Source: a virus. Taken from it: 21,023 nt of DNA. Positions 3,033 to 20,149 of the stretch are shown in pieces; within the stretch, counting starts at the first letter, position 1, and each line of letters begins with the position of its first letter. The position numbers and the translations under genes are program-made. The notes under the pieces were generated by a model that made no database searches, was not told the origin of the DNA, and saw only the letters and a list, made by a program, of their open reading frames with translations. The stretch covers positions 1 through 21,023 of the IMG/VR virus record IMGVR_UViG_3300032046_000257. One strand, given 5' to 3'.

Positions 3033-3041
3033 GATAAATAC
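3033..3041 (+). promoter_or_regulatory. T4-style late promoter
   Basis: GATAAATAC contains the ATAAATA box (3034-3040) read by T4 gp55-type late sigma factors (consensus TATAAATA). It lies 26 bases before the ATG of the 1095-residue gene and just after the terminator, in non-coding DNA. The same box precedes several other starts in the window. Confidence 0.65.
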
Positions 3042-3066: not shown

Positions 3067-6000
3067 ATGTCAGAAATTAGAAAATGGTTAAAGATTATGG
3101 AAAGTATTCCAGCAATTTTCCCAAACCAGGATGCAAAACATGCACTTATTAAGCAAGATGCTACTGTAATGGTGAATCCGAGTGTTGGCGGTGGTACTGC
3201 AAGATACATGAGTAGCACACCAAACGGTGCTATGGTTGATATCAAGGGGATTGCTAAAGAATTAAGCCAAGACGAATTTAGTCTCCCAGAGCGTGATTAC
3301 GAAGATGGGTATCAAAAAGGTAATGACTGGTTTCATATGAGTGTCAATCCCGATACACCGGGAACAATGAACGACAAGCCAGAATTTCGTGCCGGCAATA
3401 TCGTTAAGATTGCAGATGTCTATGGTTCTGTCATCGGTCCAGGAATCGGCATTTTCGTTGCTTATAGCACAAGTGGTAAGGAATGTATTATTAGTTTTGA
3501 TGATAAGGAAATTGTAGTTCCGACAGCAAATGTTGGTTCAGTTCTAGAACAGAACGCAAAAGATAATTTCGGAGAGATGGACAATGATGGTAATTTGTTA
3601 CCAATGTCACTGGGATCAAAGAATGTAAAAATAGAGGAACCGGAAATGGATCAAAGAGATGAATTTTCAAAATGGATGTCAGCTGTCGAAGAAGCCTTAA
3701 CAAGTGAAGGTAGGCCAGAACTTGCAGAATCGTTGCCAGCAACTAATAATTGTGATTGTAATGAATGGGATTGCCCAGTATGTTTCCCCGAAATGGATCC
3801 AATTGCTGCCGCACACGATCACGAGTATGATCACGTTGGATGTCCAAAATGTGACGGTAAAGGTTGCGCAGCCTGCAGTGGGCCCGAATTAGGAAGTAAG
3901 GTCGATGAGGAAGATAATGATTTCCTAGAAAAACCAAAGTCTGGCAAAGGAGTCAAGCTCGGCGACATCGTTCACAAGACAGAATTTAGGAAGACAGGTG
4001 GACAGAATTCCCCAATGACCTATGGCGACGACAACTTAGACGAAGAATTACCAGATGGTGCTAATCCAGCAGATTACGGTAAAGCTGGTCGATATATTGA
4101 TAAGCATTCCTTTGGTGATACTCTCGAAGTTGACGAAGGTAATTGGTATGATCCAGATCAAGATGATTTTAGTGACCTCGGAAAATACGAACCAACTCAA
4201 CGAGATATGGCAGATTATAACAGCAGCGATGTAGGTTATGGTGATCATCAGGAAGATGAAGAAAAAGAAAGTATGATTTCTAAGATTACTAATATCCAAA
4301 ATATGGGATTTAGTAAAGATAATCGCCATTATGATGAAATGACATTAAGATCATATACACCAGAAGAATTAAAGGCTTGCTATGATAGAGTTATGGGCGA
4401 TGTCAGCGAAGCAAAGCCAACAATGACAAAACAAACATATCATCACCTTGATGATATCGATGATATTCTAAATCCACGTCAGGCTCATCTCCCAGCAGCA
4501 ATAGATACCGATGATGGTGAGGTAGTCGGGGACGAGCAACCAATGCATCTTCCAGCAGCATCACGTGCAGATACTCAACGTAGAGTAGGTGCTATTACTC
4601 CTACAGATACAATGCGTGATTTCATGGATCGGATCGATCCAATGGCAGGCGCCGGGGAAGCAGATGTTCTTCCTGATACTCAACAGAATGCGGTAGCACT
4701 ACGAACAGCAGCAGATGTACCGGTAGTTATCAGCAATGCTATGCAAGCATCTGGAATGCAAACACCGGAATGGCATACCGTTAATAATCTACCAGGATAT
4801 TCGCAACGCAATACACGCGGCATGGGTCGTCAGATGTTCAGTATGTTTACATCAACACCACTAGAAAATATCCAGACACTTGCTAACGTAAACGGCCAAG
4901 GACCAAATACAGATGCAGAAATGCGTGCTGTGGCAGGATGGTTAAGAGATAATGCAGAAGACCTCGGCGAAGTAAATGTTAGCCACGGCGAAGCAATTCC
5001 TGGATATACTCCAGACGTTAAGGAATATAAGGCAAATGGAGTTAGATTCCAGCTTGTAAGAGATCCAATGGGACAATACATCTATGCTTATCCGGATGCA
5101 GATGCAAGATTAGGTGGTCCACAGCAAGGACAAGCACAGGTCGCAGGTCCGCAAGGCGGCATGCCTAGATTGCGTGAATCAATGCTAAAACCAACCTTGC
5201 TAGAGCAGATGAAGTGGGACGAGGAGATTGATGAGGCGTTTATTGAAGAAAGCACACTAAGTAAGTTAATTGGTAAGCAGCAGGGCGGACAGAAGCTTGT
5301 CCAATGGTTGCACAGAAAGCATCAACTCAGTAATGATGCTAATCTAGAACCAGCACCTTTTAGCGAAAGAATGTTATGGAAAGAGTTTAAGGCTCACCCA
5401 GATAATTTTGTTGTTGTTTCAGCAGCAAACGGTGTGGCCGGTGTCAAACCATACAAGAAATTCATCGACGATAGAAGAGCAGCATTTGCTAAAAAGGGTA
5501 AGACATATAATCCAGCTGGCGATAGTACATTGCCTTACCAGATTATTGCTTTTACTGATGATGGTCAACAAGTTGATCCAAATCTATTCCGCCAACCGGC
5601 AGAACCAGGTGAAGAGCCAGAAGAGCGTTATTCAGATCCGACAGTAATGAAGGCACGTATGGGTAAGCATAGCGGCAAGGATATGCAGAATCCAAATAAT
5701 ACCTTTAACCTACTTGCAGATGAAATCGGCGCATTAAAAACTGTATGGATGTCTACAGGTTCAGTTGAACGTGGCAAGATGGCGCATCGTGATGCAGGAT
5801 CACCGGCATCAACATCTAAATATAAGGATCCTGAATATGATCCTAATAAATCCTACGATGATCAATTTCCAAGTGATCGACCATCGGTTAATGCGCCATC
5901 GAAGGGCGAACGAGATAAAATGAAATATAGTGGACCTGCTGCAAAGAAGTCAGCGGCTGCATCTTCGGCTGATTCTGTAAAGAAGATTTTCGCAAGAGTA

Positions 6001-6354
6001 AGGCCAGTCCTCAAGACACTTGCCAATCAAGCAATTCTTCAAATCAATAAGAGAGCCCAGCGTTATATTGAGGGTGGAAATTTTGAAGGCGCACAGAAAG
6101 TTGCCGCAAGTGGACAGAAACTGAAGCAATTGTTAGTGTCATTAGATACATCAAACGATGTAGGTATTAACACAGACTATGGATCTAAGACAGCAGAATT
6201 ATCAACTGCCATTACAAAGGCAATTGCACAGGCATCCGGTTCCCCGGTTGGATCAACTGATTATAACGAATATGCATCTGAAGCTGCTGCCGGCAATGCT
6301 GCACAATTGCGTCCAATCTTAGATGCATTAAGGGATAATCTTGTAGGATTATAA
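3067..6354 (+). CDS. Large probable virion-internal protein, with Cys cluster and candidate cleavage sites
   Basis: This 1095-residue, acidic, Asp/Gln/Pro-rich protein matches no family I can name. The ATG at 3067 follows AAGGGA and the late promoter. An upstream in-frame TTG at 2929 would run through the terminator and promoter, so it is rejected. The N-terminus MSEIRKWLKIMES fits a T4-type capsid-targeting peptide cut after I-M-E12. A cysteine cluster has C229-x-C231-x4-C236-x2-C239 and C259-x2-C262-x4-C267-x2-C270; the second half resembles DnaJ-type CxxCxGxG zinc repeats. Two HLPAA segments occur near 475-500. Further (I/L)-x-E-S sites are at 704/705 (LRE-S) and 728/729 (IEE-S). The last 130 residues are Ala/Lys-rich and probably helical. 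The stop overlaps the next ATG (TAATG). A packaged or injected head protein is the best guess; function is unknown. Confidence 0.85.
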   Translation: MSEIRKWLKIMESIPAIFPNQDAKHALIKQDATVMVNPSVGGGTARYMSSTPNGAMVDIKGIAKELSQDEFSLPERDYEDGYQKGNDWFHMSVNPDTPGTMNDKPEFRAGNIVKIADVYGSVIGPGIGIFVAYSTSGKECIISFDDKEIVVPTANVGSVLEQNAKDNFGEMDNDGNLLPMSLGSKNVKIEEPEMDQRDEFSKWMSAVEEALTSEGRPELAESLPATNNCDCNEWDCPVCFPEMDPIAAAHDHEYDHVGCPKCDGKGCAACSGPELGSKVDEEDNDFLEKPKSGKGVKLGDIVHKTEFRKTGGQNSPMTYGDDNLDEELPDGANPADYGKAGRYIDKHSFGDTLEVDEGNWYDPDQDDFSDLGKYEPTQRDMADYNSSDVGYGDHQEDEEKESMISKITNIQNMGFSKDNRHYDEMTLRSYTPEELKACYDRVMGDVSEAKPTMTKQTYHHLDDIDDILNPRQAHLPAAIDTDDGEVVGDEQPMHLPAASRADTQRRVGAITPTDTMRDFMDRIDPMAGAGEADVLPDTQQNAVALRTAADVPVVISNAMQASGMQTPEWHTVNNLPGYSQRNTRGMGRQMFSMFTSTPLENIQTLANVNGQGPNTDAEMRAVAGWLRDNAEDLGEVNVSHGEAIPGYTPDVKEYKANGVRFQLVRDPMGQYIYAYPDADARLGGPQQGQAQVAGPQGGMPRLRESMLKPTLLEQMKWDEEIDEAFIEESTLSKLIGKQQGGQKLVQWLHRKHQLSNDANLEPAPFSERMLWKEFKAHPDNFVVVSAANGVAGVKPYKKFIDDRRAAFAKKGKTYNPAGDSTLPYQIIAFTDDGQQVDPNLFRQPAEPGEEPEERYSDPTVMKARMGKHSGKDMQNPNNTFNLLADEIGALKTVWMSTGSVERGKMAHRDAGSPASTSKYKDPEYDPNKSYDDQFPSDRPSVNAPSKGERDKMKYSGPAAKKSAAASSADSVKKIFARVRPVLKTLANQAILQINKRAQRYIEGGNFEGAQKVAASGQKLKQLLVSLDTSNDVGINTDYGSKTAELSTAITKAIAQASGSPVGSTDYNEYASEAAAGNAAQLRPILDALRDNLVGL

Positions 6355-7808
6355 TGAGTTTCATCCAATATCTTACAGAAATGTTTCTAACCGAAGCGAC
6401 TGCCCTGACAAAGGGCAGTCAGCGTGTTCTTGCTGATAAAAAACTTGTTGCGGGACTTGCTGATGCAATGCGCGATGATGCACGTTCACACCCACAGAAT
6501 TTTCCACCCAATTCGGCCAGAACTTTCCAAAAAGCACCAGACGAAGAACTTGCGCAATGGTTCCTAGAAAATATTGATAAAATTGAAAAAGAAGGTTATG
6601 AAGGTACCATTTATTCTAAAGATGGTGTCTATAGTGACTGGATTGTTCGTCGTTATATTGCAGGTAGTCATAGCTGGGAAGATATCATCGGTGTTATGAA
6701 TATGAATATGAGAGATTGGACTCTCTTAAAAAATCGTAATATGCTTGATACAACTCATAAAGATATTCCAAAGTTTAATAGTGTGAGAGATTTGGGTAAA
6801 TATTTAGCAACCCATTATCATGATAAATTAGAACAGATTCGCGACGCTGCTAAGAATGCCGCCGTGAACAAAATAGCAAAGAAAGCTAAGATTGTTGATA
6901 ATGAAGATTATTCGATTTATACTGTTTTTAATTGGGCCGCAGCAAGGGCATTAGGATTGGGAACACAATGGTGTACTGCCAATTCAAAAAACAATCATAA
7001 TTATGAAACTTACGCGTCAAGGGCAATGGTATTTCAAGTCTATCCAAAAAATCCAGAGCATGTTGATCGAGAAGGCAAGGTATTAGGTAAAAGAACCACA
7101 GGACCAGAAAAGTATCAATTTGATGCTGGGACACCATGTTTTCATGATATTGCTGACGATCCTGCATCAAAGCCCGAAATTATAGAAAAATTTCCATACC
7201 TTTATTCTGACATAGTAAAAGGATTGAAGCAACATAAATCCCAACTCGAAATTTTAATGAAGGAAATGTCCGAAGATCCTCAATTAGCAGGTAATGAGGC
7301 TGGAAAAACTAAGGTTTACGATATAGATGACGAAATAAAGAAATTAAAGAAGTTACAAAATTTAGGATATTTTACAGATCAGGTTCGCCCAAAATCGGGT
7401 GTATCATCGGCCGAAGAACCAGCAGGGGATCAACCACAGGCCCTACCTGCACCACAACAACCAGCACCACAAGGAAATCCACAAATGGAAAATGTAGATA
7501 AAGACGTAGCAGCAATGCTTAATTCACTAAAGAAATATGACATGCTTACTGAATCAGTATCACCGGTTTTGGGCATGGTTACTCTTGGCGAAAAGAAGAA
7601 GCCAGACTTCCTAGACTTCGACAAAGACGAAGACAAGAAAGAGCCAATGACTAAAGCCCTCAAGGATAAAGAAAAGAAAGCCGGTCCTACGGACGAATCT
7701 GACTCCGAAGGCGGGGAAATTGATGAATCAGCTCAAACAGGCGCAGATCAAGAAGTGCTAACCTGGATGAAGCGTTTCGCCAGTCTTGGTAAAATGTCAG
7801 GATATTGA
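6354..7808 (+). CDS. Probable internal head protein with WCTA-motif domain and acidic DxDxD tail
   Basis: This is a 484-residue protein. The N-terminus MSFIQYLTEMFLTEATA holds two candidate prohead-protease sites, LTE9-M and LTE14-A, and the second resembles the T4 internal-protein pattern EFIAE-A. Residues about 185-270 form a domain with ARALGLGTQWCTANSKNN (W206, C207) and KYQFDAG. I recognise this pattern from many tailed-phage proteins but cannot give its function. A Pro/Gln/Ala linker (355-377) leads to MLTE400-S, another candidate cleavage site. Then comes KKPDFLDFDKDEDKKEPM (415-432), an EF-hand-like DxDxDxxxxE stretch that recurs at the ends of phage structural proteins. The tail is highly charged. 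The gene overlaps the previous stop by one base and shares its late promoter. A role inside the capsid is inferred. Confidence 0.85.
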   Translation: MSFIQYLTEMFLTEATALTKGSQRVLADKKLVAGLADAMRDDARSHPQNFPPNSARTFQKAPDEELAQWFLENIDKIEKEGYEGTIYSKDGVYSDWIVRRYIAGSHSWEDIIGVMNMNMRDWTLLKNRNMLDTTHKDIPKFNSVRDLGKYLATHYHDKLEQIRDAAKNAAVNKIAKKAKIVDNEDYSIYTVFNWAAARALGLGTQWCTANSKNNHNYETYASRAMVFQVYPKNPEHVDREGKVLGKRTTGPEKYQFDAGTPCFHDIADDPASKPEIIEKFPYLYSDIVKGLKQHKSQLEILMKEMSEDPQLAGNEAGKTKVYDIDDEIKKLKKLQNLGYFTDQVRPKSGVSSAEEPAGDQPQALPAPQQPAPQGNPQMENVDKDVAAMLNSLKKYDMLTESVSPVLGMVTLGEKKKPDFLDFDKDEDKKEPMTKALKDKEKKAGPTDESDSEGGEIDESAQTGADQEVLTWMKRFASLGKMSGY

Positions 7809-7809
7809 T

Positions 7810-8100
7810 ATGAGATTAGATGAATTTTCTTCCGTAGTTAAGAAAGTTAAGGAAACTACGGGTGATGAAAAATTCGACAATATGATGAATAATATTTCTA
7901 GTAGTGATTCTCCACAAACTAATCTTGGAAATCGGTCGATAACCACCGATAGAAAAATAATGGAATTAACTCACAAGATATTTCTTAGATTAAGAGAATA
8001 TGATGATCCAGAAATCTATGAGAAATTTATTAATTTTATGATAAAGACAGTAGAAACCAATGTCGGTCCTATAGACGAATCTTTGAAGAATAAAGCTTGA
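7810..8100 (+). CDS. Small conserved-type phage protein, unknown
   Basis: This 96-residue charged protein starts MRLDEFSSVVKK and looks mostly helical, with a predicted amphipathic stretch around DRKIMELTHKIFLRLREY. I chose the ATG at 7810, which follows AGGAT and lies just after the previous stop; a TTG at 7786 would add eight residues inside the upstream gene. An IDE-S triplet near the C-terminus matches the loose prohead-protease consensus but could be chance. It is the last gene of the late unit. I recognise no family. Confidence 0.65.
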   Translation: MRLDEFSSVVKKVKETTGDEKFDNMMNNISSSDSPQTNLGNRSITTDRKIMELTHKIFLRLREYDDPEIYEKFINFMIKTVETNVGPIDESLKNKA

Positions 8101-8134
8101 ATAAGAAATTATATCTCTTTTCTTTAGTGGTTGA

Positions 8135-8163
8135 TTGACTTTTCAGTAAGTAGTTGTTACACT
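8135..8163 (+). promoter_or_regulatory. Sigma70-type promoter for the exonuclease gene
   Basis: TTGACT (8135-8140) and TACACT (8158-8163) are separated by exactly 17 bases, in the 86-base gap after the late unit. The exonuclease ATG is 23 bases downstream, with GGAG at 8174-8177 as its ribosome binding site. Confidence 0.75.
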
Positions 8164-8186
8164 ATTGCTTACTGGAGAGTTTTACC

Positions 8187-8954
8187 ATGTCTCACAAAGA
8201 AAATTTCTTACAGAGTTGTTTAGTTTTAGATACCGAAACCAATTCTGATGATTATAAAATTGCTGAAATTGTAGAATCTGGCTTCGTTATTAGAGAAGAC
8301 GATGATTGGACAATTTTTCAAGAATTACACAAGCCCGTCGATCGTCCTATTCCACCCAAGGTAGAATCAATTTGCTACATCACAAATAAGATGGTGGCTG
8401 ATAAACCATCCTTTGTTGATTCGAGCGAAATATTTCAGTCAGTAATAAATGGTTATACTGGTGGTTACCTTGTGGCCCATAATCATTTCTATGATATGCG
8501 TGTTTTAGAAAGACACGGTATCGATACATCAAAGCACAATTGGTTATGTTCTTGGCGTATGTCTAAAAAACTATTCAATGGTGTAGATACAATTGAAGAA
8601 ACAAATCTCCCATATTTACGATTTGCACTTGAATTGGATATTCCAATCGAGATGCGTTGCCATCGCGCTGGTAATGATTCCTATATAACTGCTAAATTGC
8701 TTGAGGCACTTGTGAGTTATATGGAGGAAATGGGATTGATTGATAAGGATCAACCATATGGTCCACAAATTGCAAAATGGGCAGCTGAGCCTATCATCTA
8801 TGAAAGAATGCCCTTTGGTAAACACAAGAATGAATTAATGACTTCTGTCCCACACTCGTATTGGTCATGGGCGATGAAAAACACAGATTGGTTTAATGAA
8901 GATGCCGATAATCACGATCCGGATTTAGCAGCGAGCATTAATGCCGTGCTATAA
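8187..8954 (+). CDS. DnaQ-type 3'-5' exonuclease fused to a DUF3820-like C-terminal domain
   Basis: This is a 255-residue protein. The N-terminal DEDDh exonuclease domain shows ExoI D15-T-E17 (LDTET), ExoII HNHFYD with D103, and ExoIII H159-x4-D164 (HRAGNDSYIT). These are the metal-binding and catalytic residues expected for 3'-5' removal of nucleotides from DNA or RNA ends. Residues 206-231 (ERMPFGKHKNE...PHSYWSWAM) match the short DUF3820 pattern MPFGKHKG...PxxYLxW, often fused to or near DnaQ-like exonucleases. The ATG at 8187 fits the promoter and the GGAG site; an upstream in-frame codon at 8154 would overlap the promoter -10 region. The stop abuts the stop of the convergent minus-strand gene with no spacer. 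Roles could include proofreading in trans, host DNA degradation or RNA trimming. The family call is strong. Confidence 0.88.
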   Translation: MSHKENFLQSCLVLDTETNSDDYKIAEIVESGFVIREDDDWTIFQELHKPVDRPIPPKVESICYITNKMVADKPSFVDSSEIFQSVINGYTGGYLVAHNHFYDMRVLERHGIDTSKHNWLCSWRMSKKLFNGVDTIEETNLPYLRFALELDIPIEMRCHRAGNDSYITAKLLEALVSYMEEMGLIDKDQPYGPQIAKWAAEPIIYERMPFGKHKNELMTSVPHSYWSWAMKNTDWFNEDADNHDPDLAASINAVL

Positions 8955-9344
8955 TTACTGCCCATTTGAATTGCGAGCACCGTCCATTGTTTGTGTTGCT
9001 AATAATCTCTGTGGATCAGGTTTGTATGCTTGTACATCGTGGTTGTAAGGTAGATTTGCAGCAGCTAAAGCATATTGTAAGCCACGATAGCCGGGAGATT
9101 GAAGCTTGCCCTTCTTAGGCATATTAGTGTATTCTGCTTGTGGCTTGGTAATTGGTTTTGTAAAGACTGGAACTATTTCTTCACTAAACCATTGTTTGAA
9201 GTGTTCGTCGTAATATTCTTTATTTAGGTTCTTGTATTTTACATCTTCAGGATTATAAAATTTGTCCATATCAGCAGACGCTTCTTTATAGAAACGAGCA
9301 ACAACATCAGTGGCGCTTTCGCCCAAGAATTCTTTTATCTTCAT
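8955..9344 (-). CDS. Small late-type protein with capsid-targeting-like N-terminus; only minus-strand gene
   Basis: This 129-residue protein begins [15 protein letters not shown]. The segment EFLGE-S closely resembles the T4 internal-protein signal (EFIAE-A), cut by the prohead protease after the glutamate at residue 9. The rest is Lys/Tyr/Pro-rich with no family I recognise. The start is taken at 9344 (ATG); a TTG at 9359 would add five residues. An ATAAATA late box on the minus strand lies only five bases before this ATG, leaving no room for a leader, and no ribosome binding site is visible. It is convergent with the exonuclease gene, with touching stops, and divergent from clpP, with 27 bases between starts. 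A small virion-internal protein is the likely role. Confidence 0.7.
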
Positions 9345-9349
9345 AGCAC

Positions 9350-9356
9350 TATTTAT
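9350..9356 (-). promoter_or_regulatory. Late promoter box on the minus strand, abutting a start codon
   Basis: Read on the minus strand the sequence is TTTGATAAATAGTGCT followed by ATG. The ATAAATA box matches the plus-strand late boxes, but it is only five bases from the start codon, where the others are 20-26 bases away. If used, the mRNA would be leaderless or nearly so. The same bases form part of the clpP leader on the other strand. Confidence 0.4.
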
Positions 9357-9371
9357 CAAAGGAAAACAAAA

Positions 9372-9968
9372 ATGAGAAACGCATTGATTCCAATCGTAGT
9401 TGAGCAGACCGCCCGCGGAGATCGTTCCTATGATCTATATTCACGTTTAATGAAGGAAAGAGTCATTTTCTTCACAGGAGAAGTAGAGGAGCACATGTGT
9501 GATGTTATTGTGGCGCAATTACTCTTCTTGGAAGCCGAAAATCCGGATATGCCGATAAGTATGTATGTCAAGTCCCCCGGTGGTTCGGTATATGATGGAT
9601 TGGCTGTCTATGATGTAATGCAATATATCAGATGTCCAGTTCATACCTATGCTATTGGTTGGGCAGCAAGTATGGGTTCGTTTATTGCACAGGCAGGTGC
9701 GCCCGGCCATAGGTATTTACTTCCGCGGACAATGACAATGATACACCAGCCCGCATCTGGCACAAGGGGTAAGATTACTGACATGGAAATTGATCTTAAG
9801 GAAAGTATTCGGATGAAGAAACAGATGACGGAATTGTATGTCAAGCATAATTCCAGAGGTGTAACATATGATCAGTTTGTAACATTGCTTGACAGAGATA
9901 AATGGTTAACTGCACCCGAAGCTGTTGAGCTTGGATTAGCAGATCAGATTGTGGATAAAAGACTATGA
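9372..9968 (+). CDS. clpP: ClpP serine protease subunit
   Basis: This 198-residue peptidase would form the barrel that degrades proteins delivered by ClpX or ClpA unfoldases. The catalytic triad is complete: S100 in [10 protein letters not shown]125 in MIHQP, and D176 in LDRDKW before the conserved [13 protein letters not shown] segment. The N-terminal loop ([23 protein letters not shown]) that contacts the ATPase and gates the pore is well preserved. This favours a working subunit that docks on host ClpX/ClpA over a prohead protease that has lost these features. No ATPase partner is in the window. Start: ATG with AAAGGA at 9358-9363. The stop overlaps the next ATG (ATGA at 9965-9968), coupling it to the Fe-S carrier. 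Remodelling of host proteins or virion maturation are both possible. Confidence 0.95.
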
Positions 9969-17156: not shown

Positions 17157-17687
17157 ATGAAAGAAGGTGGAATAAAAGTGAATATGTATGGCCAGGCCAT
17201 ACTTTCCAGTAATGAATTGAGAGAATTATTATTACAAGGAAAGAACATAAGTCACTTGAATGTTATGTTTGATGAGGAAATAAACCTCTTTAAAGAACAC
17301 CAGGCTGAGTTATTGCAGGAAACAATTACATTTTTAGATGCACCAGAGGAAATTTTAACATTTGACGAGTTCCATCAAACGTGTGCTGATGAATGGATTT
17401 TCCCAGAAATTTATCAGCAAATAGATGTAAAATCCTGGTTGTTATCTAGATGCAAGACTGAAGAGGAAATTAGAAGAGTAAATTTAGAATACGGGTTATT
17501 TGAAGAGAGAGACTTGATAATGTTATTACGACTTTTTATCTATATTATAGATTATTTTAGAAAAAATAATTATGTATGGGGAGTCGGTCGAGGAAGTTCG
17601 GTTAGTAGTTTTATATTATTTTTAATTGGGACACACTTTGTAAATCCAATAAAATATAATTTGGATATTAGAGATTTTTTAAAATAG
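17157..17687 (+). CDS. Truncated DnaE-like protein (DNA polymerase III alpha fragment without the catalytic aspartates)
   Basis: This is a 176-residue protein. Residues 139-176 (YVWGVGRGSSVSSFILFL, then NPIKYNLDIRDFLK) match the DnaE palm segment G-P-G-R-G-S...DP-(I/L)-(K/R)-Y-(N/D)-L...FL that carries the nucleotide-binding GS motif. In complete DnaE the next residues hold the catalytic DxD, and this protein stops just before them. The preceding helices (LEYGLFEERDLIMLLRLF) align with the DnaE stretch before GPGRGS. The first 70 residues are unlike DnaE. The stop is a clean TAG with no downstream continuation of homology. The GTG at 17178 or ATG at 17184 may be the true start, since AAGGTGG lies before them. 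It cannot be a polymerase by itself; a regulatory or binding role is possible. Confidence 0.78.
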   Translation: MKEGGIKVNMYGQAILSSNELRELLLQGKNISHLNVMFDEEINLFKEHQAELLQETITFLDAPEEILTFDEFHQTCADEWIFPEIYQQIDVKSWLLSRCKTEEEIRRVNLEYGLFEERDLIMLLRLFIYIIDYFRKNNYVWGVGRGSSVSSFILFLIGTHFVNPIKYNLDIRDFLK

Positions 17688-19371: not shown

Positions 19372-19402
19372 AGGAAAAGCAACATAAATTGACCTGGATA
19401 TG

Positions 19403-19410
19403 ATAAATAC
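19403..19410 (+). promoter_or_regulatory. Late promoter box for the homing endonuclease
   Basis: ATAAATAC lies in the 58-base gap after the clamp-loader gene, 20 bases before the HNH ATG at 19430. A weaker TTGACC...TATACA pair with a 19-base spacer overlaps it (19389-19419). Late expression is known for T4 homing endonucleases. Confidence 0.5.
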
Positions 19411-19429: not shown

Positions 19430-20149
19430 ATGTTGTGTAATAGAGGATGTGGTAAGGAAGCGACTCATTTTTCTAAAAATAAGAATGAATGGGTATGCCA
19501 TAAAGTTCCAGCGAAATGTAATATTATAGCTGATAAAATAGGGGCAACGAGAAAACAAATTTTTCAAGATGATCCATTTAGACATAACGGCTGGGGCAGA
19601 GTTATGTCTAACGAAACAAAAAGAAAAATAGGTGAGAAGACATCGGCAGCATTGCTTGGCAGAAAAATGCCAGAACACGTTAAAATTAAAATAGCTGAAG
19701 CAAACATAGGCAGAATTTGTTCCGACAATACTAAAGAAAAGATTAGGCAATCTAATTTAGAATACTGGGCAGAGAATAAAAGAGTTCCCTGGAACAAGAA
19801 TAAGAAAGGATCGCAAGTTGCCTGGAATAAAGGGCTAAAGAAAATAGAATCACCAGAAATACTATCGCGTGATGATCCTGTATATTCTGACTTTAAGAAA
19901 TATAGACATCGTGTAGGAACACATACTGCCTATTCATACAGGTTGTTCAAAGAAGAAATCAATCCACAAAATTTACCAAGAGGTAAATGTGGAATAGATG
20001 GTGCCTATCAATTAGATCACATTATTACCGTACGGCAAGGTTTTGAACAAGGTATTTCAATTGAAGAAATTAGTTCTAAAGAAAATCTAAGGGTTATATC
20101 CTGGTTAGAAAATGTAAAGAAATATGATGGAAAAGGTTTAAGAAAATGA
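19430..20149 (+). CDS. Free-standing HNH homing endonuclease with NUMOD3 repeats
   Basis: This 239-residue protein is a selfish mobile gene that cuts endonuclease-free alleles so that it spreads by repair. The N-terminus (MLCNRGCGKEATHF...WVCHKVPAKC) holds a C-x3-C...C-x6-C probable zinc knuckle. Two NUMOD3-like DNA-binding helices follow: SNETKRKIGEKTSAALLGRKM and CSDNTKEKIRQSNLEYW. WNKGLKK is a further NUMOD-type hallmark. The C-terminal catalytic part has QLDHIITVRQGFEQGIS and SKENLRVISWLENVKKYDG, the H...N...N/K order of this HNH branch. The ATG at 19430 has AGGAG (19419-19423) at six bases. It sits between the clamp-loader gene and small unknowns, a typical place for T4-like phage homing genes. 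It probably recognises a sequence in or near gene 44. Confidence 0.85.
   Translation: MLCNRGCGKEATHFSKNKNEWVCHKVPAKCNIIADKIGATRKQIFQDDPFRHNGWGRVMSNETKRKIGEKTSAALLGRKMPEHVKIKIAEANIGRICSDNTKEKIRQSNLEYWAENKRVPWNKNKKGSQVAWNKGLKKIESPEILSRDDPVYSDFKKYRHRVGTHTAYSYRLFKEEINPQNLPRGKCGIDGAYQLDHIITVRQGFEQGISIEEISSKENLRVISWLENVKKYDGKGLRK

Follow-up and report, generated by a model that had tools for sequence, protein, structure and literature searches.

Predicted prohead-targeting leaders of the T4 type on three proteins encoded by a relative of the Pseudomonas jumbo phage PA5oct

Three leaders interpreted as prohead-targeting propeptides

Three proteins of the window (the entire 21,023-base virus record analysed here), designated A, B and C, begin with short leaders that we interpret, with a probability of approximately 0.72, as T4-type prohead-targeting propeptides predicted to be cut by the phage S77 protease. 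Such leaders would be a variant of the already known T4 mechanism. Of the three proteins, B offers the strongest support for the propeptide interpretation and C the weakest. A sequence-only reading had pointed to the three N-termini at 3067 (+), 6354 (+) and 9344 (−), all confirmed at these positions, and had described them as capsid-targeting-like propeptides cut by a gp21-type protease. The bare likeness to T4 leaders turned out to be at chance level, while the proposal as such gained comparative support: cleavage residues are kept in otherwise variable leaders, an S77 protease is present in relatives, late-type promoters are conserved at A and C, and mass spectrometry (MS) of PA5oct virions detected the homolog of B and shows an enrichment of leaders of this class.

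The mechanism that we propose is as follows. A, B and C would be expressed late and belong to the head (prohead core) of a PA5oct-like jumbo phage, each bearing an amphipathic N-terminal propeptide of 9–14 residues. Hydrophobic residues of the propeptide would bind the assembling core or scaffold; the phage Peptidase_S77 (gp21-type) would then cut after (L/I)-x-E, and the mature protein would stay in the head with the DNA. The three proteins are probably packaged alongside viral DNA. Targeting, cleavage, head location and any release into the host are inferred; A, B and C might conceivably be delivered into the host.

The window and its relatives

No near match to the window was found among sequenced phages at the DNA level. 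C has homologs in several Pseudomonas phages, PA5oct, Paride and MIJ3 among them; other window genes with matches in PA5oct code for ligase, ClpP, MazG, dCMP deaminase, clamp loader and a DnaE-like fragment. Since the C homolog resides in the same gene context and several more genes match those of PA5oct, the window is, by its gene content, a piece of a jumbo phage related to PA5oct (Wroclawvirus, Arenbergviridae). The larger IMG/VR relatives used in comparisons were G001 (385 kb), G003 (369 kb) and G006 (363 kb).

Gene B directly follows A, and its start overlaps the stop of A (Table 1). The third gene of this operon, whose start is similar to the leader class, is a possible further member of that class, a weak candidate with few orthologs. 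Gene C stands alone, antisense, between genes for a DNA polymerase III epsilon-like exonuclease and ClpP; the same arrangement is seen in PA5oct and Paride. For all three genes a simple gene caller, which reproduces 352 of 370 PA5oct starts, chose the same start codons, and orthologs align from residue 1, which confirms the called starts. Elsewhere in the window, a 176-aa protein (17157–17687) carries only a fragment of PF07733 (DNA polymerase III alpha domain) and is kept in PA5oct as gp196.

Table 1. Positions of the genes, predicted leaders, promoter-like boxes and predicted internal sites in the window
Feature	Position	Strand	Description
A	3067..6354	+	1095 aa; predicted head/core protein
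A leader	3067..3102	+	MSEIRKWLKIME, then SIPAIF; predicted cut before S13; kept in orthologs reaching the N-terminus
A E209	3691..3693	+	predicted internal site SAVEE, then A; 9/9 orthologs
A E704	5176..5178	+	predicted internal site RLRE, then S; 9/9 orthologs, x varies
A E728	5248..5250	+	predicted internal site FIEE, then S; 9/9 orthologs, x varies
B	6354..7808	+	484 aa; WCT-motif protein; homolog of PA5oct virion protein gp279
B leader	6354..6395	+	MSFIQYLTEMFLTE, then ATALTKGSQRV; predicted cut before A15
B E400	7551..7553	+	predicted internal site YDxLxE, then S; 11/11 orthologs, x varies
Third gene of A–B operon	7810..8100	+	96 aa; starts MRLDEF...
C	8955..9344	−	129 aa; homolog of PA5oct gp213
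C leader	9318..9344	−	MKIKEFLGE; predicted cut before S10; [LI]xE kept in 14/14
GATAAATA box	3033..3040	+	T4-late-like; upstream of A; 15/15 orthologs
GATAAATA box	9350..9357	−	five bases before ATG of C; 11/12 orthologs (in the twelfth the region is cut off by the contig end)
GATAAATA box	19402..19409	+	upstream of endonuclease-like gene at 19430

Conservation of the leaders

We ran a blind scan of all 34 window genes for a hydrophobic-x-E column that diverse orthologs conserve among their first 20 residues. Conservation of 100% was observed in A, B and C only (16, 20 and 22 distinct sequences); the runners-up (ClpP, lipase and others) had Q, Y or R after the E. It is only in this comparison of orthologs that the likeness of the three proteins to T4 leaders exceeds chance.

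We compared 21 leaders of B. Both the E and the L/I at position −2 were retained in 21 of 21, with leader length varying from 13 to 15 residues; examples are MKPAELLDEMILTE, MHFFSLIESLLME and MKSLFRSLLRTFLTE, each followed by A, MNTFNSLTRKVLTE followed by S and MTFANYLPEAFLLE followed by D. Positions −7 (L/I/V) and −5 (mostly E) had pairwise identities of 66–73%, and most other leader positions 12–38%; a nearly invariant core, KGSQRV, comes directly after the leader. The 14 leaders of C sharing [LI]xE include the one from the PA5oct homolog, MKIKEIILE followed by N, as well as one with an inserted residue. In A the leader is nearly invariant among orthologs, and the motif is present in every ortholog that reaches the N-terminus; as this leader hardly varies, its conservation cannot tell a cleavage signal from general constraint. 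The G006 copy of A is without the first ∼195 residues, leader included.

An almost unchanging leader, along its full length, is what would be expected of a helix with a permanent binding role. Thus, A, B and C could be virion or core proteins with an uncut N-terminal helix that binds scaffold, portal or neck, the likeness to LxE being incidental. We consider this explanation unlikely, given that in B, where leader length and most helix positions differ among orthologs, the L/I and E of the protease motif are retained, that the motif of C survives an insertion and that the phage group possesses an S77 protease.

Prohead protease

The gp21-type protease presumed in the sequence-only reading was identified in each of the four relatives that measure 287 kb or more, though not within the 21-kb fragment itself: Peptidase_S77 is present in PA5oct, G001, G003 and G006 (E-values from 7e-25 to 3.5e-28), and was not found in the window or in partial contigs of 60, 134, 166 and 238 kb, all of them fragments. 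The PA5oct enzyme matches the structure of T4 gp21 (5jbl) with an E-value of 3.5e-15. The order of genes in PA5oct is portal, a 73-aa protein (gp333) starting with MKINDIITE/GYYNPADD (here and below the slash follows the E of the motif), core-like protein, protease, scaffold-like protein and capsid protein; the 73-aa protein occupies what we take to be the position of T4 gene 67.

The window gene at 9372–9968 (PF00574, 224 bits) codes for ClpP. As a candidate for the processing enzyme it was ruled out, being a ClpP with the S77 protease encoded by a separate gene. Its counterparts in PA5oct and Paride carry the label ‘head maturation protease’, apparently in error, since Peptidase_S77 is encoded by a gene of its own. 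The PA5oct ClpP itself is flagged as virion-detected.

A late-type promoter box

The word GATAAATA appears in the window three times, with two copies just upstream of A and C. In PA5oct, we observed GATAAATA within 80 bp upstream of 27 genes (32 sites in total) versus 2 expected; genes for MS-detected proteins had the box in 17 of 93 cases in comparison with 10 of 352 for the others (p 1e-6). The numbers of genes and sites were 41 and 77 in G001, 59 and 88 in G003, and 52 and 64 in G006. Strongly concentrated directly before gene starts and, in PA5oct, enriched at genes for MS-detected proteins, GATAAATA acts like a late promoter box throughout the group of PA5oct-type phages. It resembles the T4 late box, TATAAATA, and PA5oct has an annotated gene for a late-transcription sigma factor. 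A literature search for the word GATAAATA listed no paper containing it.

A pre-stated prediction that G006 genes with the narrow leader motif would be linked to the late promoter failed (1 of 9, p 0.55), while broader leader motifs in G006 gave a p of about 0.05; with four genomes pooled, the narrow motif coincided with the late promoter in 9 of 32 cases versus 170 of 2197 (p 6e-4).

A spacing of just 4–7 bases between GATAAATA and the ATG was observed at C (9344–9357, −), at 359395 in G001 and at 83113 and 218533 in G003; such close spacing is seen in several leader-type genes and in genes for GIY-YIG-like homing endonucleases. The G006 copy of C has the box at normal spacing. A box this close to the ATG suggests that stand-alone genes of the C type have nearly leaderless late mRNAs.

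Virion proteins of PA5oct

Virion proteins of PA5oct are known by mass spectrometry; the window phage is known from sequence alone. We used as evidence of virion detection the ESI-MS/MS flags of the PA5oct record as annotated (93 proteins marked). Leaders of the C class, defined as M[KR], hydrophobic, x, [DE], hydrophobic, then E, were present in 6 of the 93 MS-detected proteins and in 1 of the 352 others, with a p-value of 4e-4 that is optimistic since the definition of the class was broadened once the first surveys had been made. The MS-detected set with these leaders includes MKINDIITE/G, the start of gp333, and MKIKDILVE/S.

The homolog of B, gp279, is MS-detected, and its own start, MKLFEVFTLYE/D, fits too. 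The relation of B to gp279 was established in the region of the WCT motif by BLASTP (3.4e-4 within the proteome) and HMM search (1.1e-3), along with hhalign (2.4e-6, probability 89%) and Foldseek (1e-5 from a low-confidence model). The A-type leader was found on the G001 and G003 counterparts of another MS-detected protein, gp281 (MKSMRDMIKLME and MKSMRELISLME, each followed by G). In gp281 a Cys-rich stretch similar to that of A (see below) comes directly after the leader, for which the predicted cut site is AVKE/S.

Packaging in virions was a part of the original proposal. Virion presence is supported by the comparison with PA5oct for B alone, via gp279; the homolog of C, gp213, has no detection flag among PA5oct virion proteins, and no PA5oct homolog of A was found. 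In the virion study of MIJ3 only four proteins were identified.

With gp213 unflagged and C residing alone on the minus strand between the exonuclease and ClpP genes, one could suppose that A and B are packaged head proteins, whereas C is a late stand-alone accessory protein outside of the virion, its leader having another role. This scenario appears improbable to us: the leader of C is the strictest of the three and belongs to the same class as the starts of the MS-detected MKINDIITE/G and MKIKDILVE/S proteins, the late-type promoter of C is conserved, and small proteins are easily missed in mass spectrometry.

Frequency of the bare pattern

We also counted occurrences of the bare pattern, M followed by at most 16 residues and then [LIFMV]xE[ASG], with internal sequence as background. 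No excess was observed: the window had 3 against 2.5 expected, G001 had 36 against 38 and G003 had 33 against 32. Therefore, likeness to T4 leaders taken alone is no evidence, and bare-motif counting in the window and the two large relatives was dropped as a line of evidence. For motif variants with a hydrophobic pair at −3/−2 some excess was seen in PA5oct; their link to MS detection was not significant. Although counts equal to expectation are what would be observed if the leader pattern were a chance trait of ordinary amphipathic N-termini on non-virion proteins, we find this very unlikely, as the blind ortholog scan was passed by A, B and C only, A and C are preceded by late-type promoters, and virions were found to contain the B homolog.

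Internal sites and other features of A and B

Beyond the leaders, A and B have conserved candidate sites inside the proteins (Table 1). Variants seen among orthologs were RLRE/S, RLTE/A and QMSE/S at E704 of A, and FIEE/S, FIKE/S, LLDE/S and ELDE/S at E728. In G006, A starts just upstream of the E209 motif. In G001 (27755–30633), A is split near E728 into proteins of 608 aa and 349 aa, and the 608-aa one is fused to the tail of B; the split of A and the fusion of the C-terminal tail of B indicate that the A–B region is modular. Multi-site processing is known for T4 core proteins (PMC9026906); the internal sites and the split and start points of the orthologs would fit processing of this kind.

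Several features of the mature proteins were observed as well. Residues 229–270 of A (3751–3876) contain six invariant cysteines (C229, C231, C236, C239, C267 and C270), a cluster that looks like a metal-binding knuckle. B has a QWCT motif at residues 205–208 (6966–6977); the WCT-motif family was also found, by Foldseek and tblastn, in Caulobacter phage CcrBL9, Salicola phage SCTP-2 and Marseillevirus-like proteins. Structural models were too weak to suggest fold or function (mean pLDDT 49 for B and 60 for the C-terminal part of A). Foldseek searches with these models gave no useful match for A, and most of the relatives that they returned for B are uncharacterised; no relatives of B were found in bacterial genome contigs. 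The tail motif DKDxDKKEP was considered as a marker of packaged proteins and dropped; with the pattern used, it was present only in B.

Comparison with known systems

In T4, the internal proteins IPI, IPII and IPIII as well as Alt have capsid-targeting sequences cut by gp21; the propeptides of Alt and the internal proteins are 7–19 residues long and end in (L/I)-x-E, with positions 4 and 7 mainly responsible for targeting and positions 8 and 10 for processing (PMC9026906). The leaders of A, B and C are alike in length (12, 14 and 9 residues) and in the (L/I)-x-E end. When aligned from the E to positions 4, 7, 8 and 10 of IPIII, C has I, F, L and E; B has hydrophobic residues at −7, −3 and −2, and A has K at −3 but hydrophobic residues at −5, −4 and −2. 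Changing this E to D is reported to abolish cleavage of T4 IPIII. T4 and the phage group of the window also share a gp21-family protease, a late-type promoter box and mature proteins that are mutually unrelated.

There are differences too. As far as searched, mature A, B and C have no homology to the T4 internal proteins; A is a 120-kDa acidic protein (pI 4.8), whereas the T4 internal proteins are small and basic. The conserved internal sites in A and B also set them apart from the T4 internal proteins, and targeting and cleavage are, in the window phage, predicted. The closest parallels are those in PA5oct, where gp279 is homologous to B, gp333 has a leader of the C class and counterparts of gp281 bear the A-type leader. 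Jumbo phages of the phiKZ/SPN3US type pack many proteins with their DNA, several of them cleaved by a prohead protease (PMC10052503, PMC7411985). They form a separate lineage with its own protease and propeptides.

Implications for PA5oct-type jumbo phages

One could speculate further that in Arenbergviridae-like jumbo phages a portable, modular head-targeting leader of 9–15 residues has come to be carried by many unrelated genes, whose products would be packaged, cleaved and delivered together with the DNA. In this broader idea, which we regard as tentative and rather doubtful, the leader is at times coupled to a compact late promoter that is nearly leaderless, with GATAAATA lying five bases ahead of the ATG, and the packaged proteins include one of 120 kDa in which internal protease sites are conserved.

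In T4, a 10-residue label brings proteins for host takeover and anti-restriction into the head. If PA5oct-type jumbo phages did likewise with many unrelated proteins, their packaged and possibly injected proteome would be readable from the genome, which would give a list of candidate proteins that these phages, among them Paride with its ability to kill dormant Pseudomonas, may deliver at infection. The leader might also serve as a tag by which foreign proteins are brought into a capsid of very large size.
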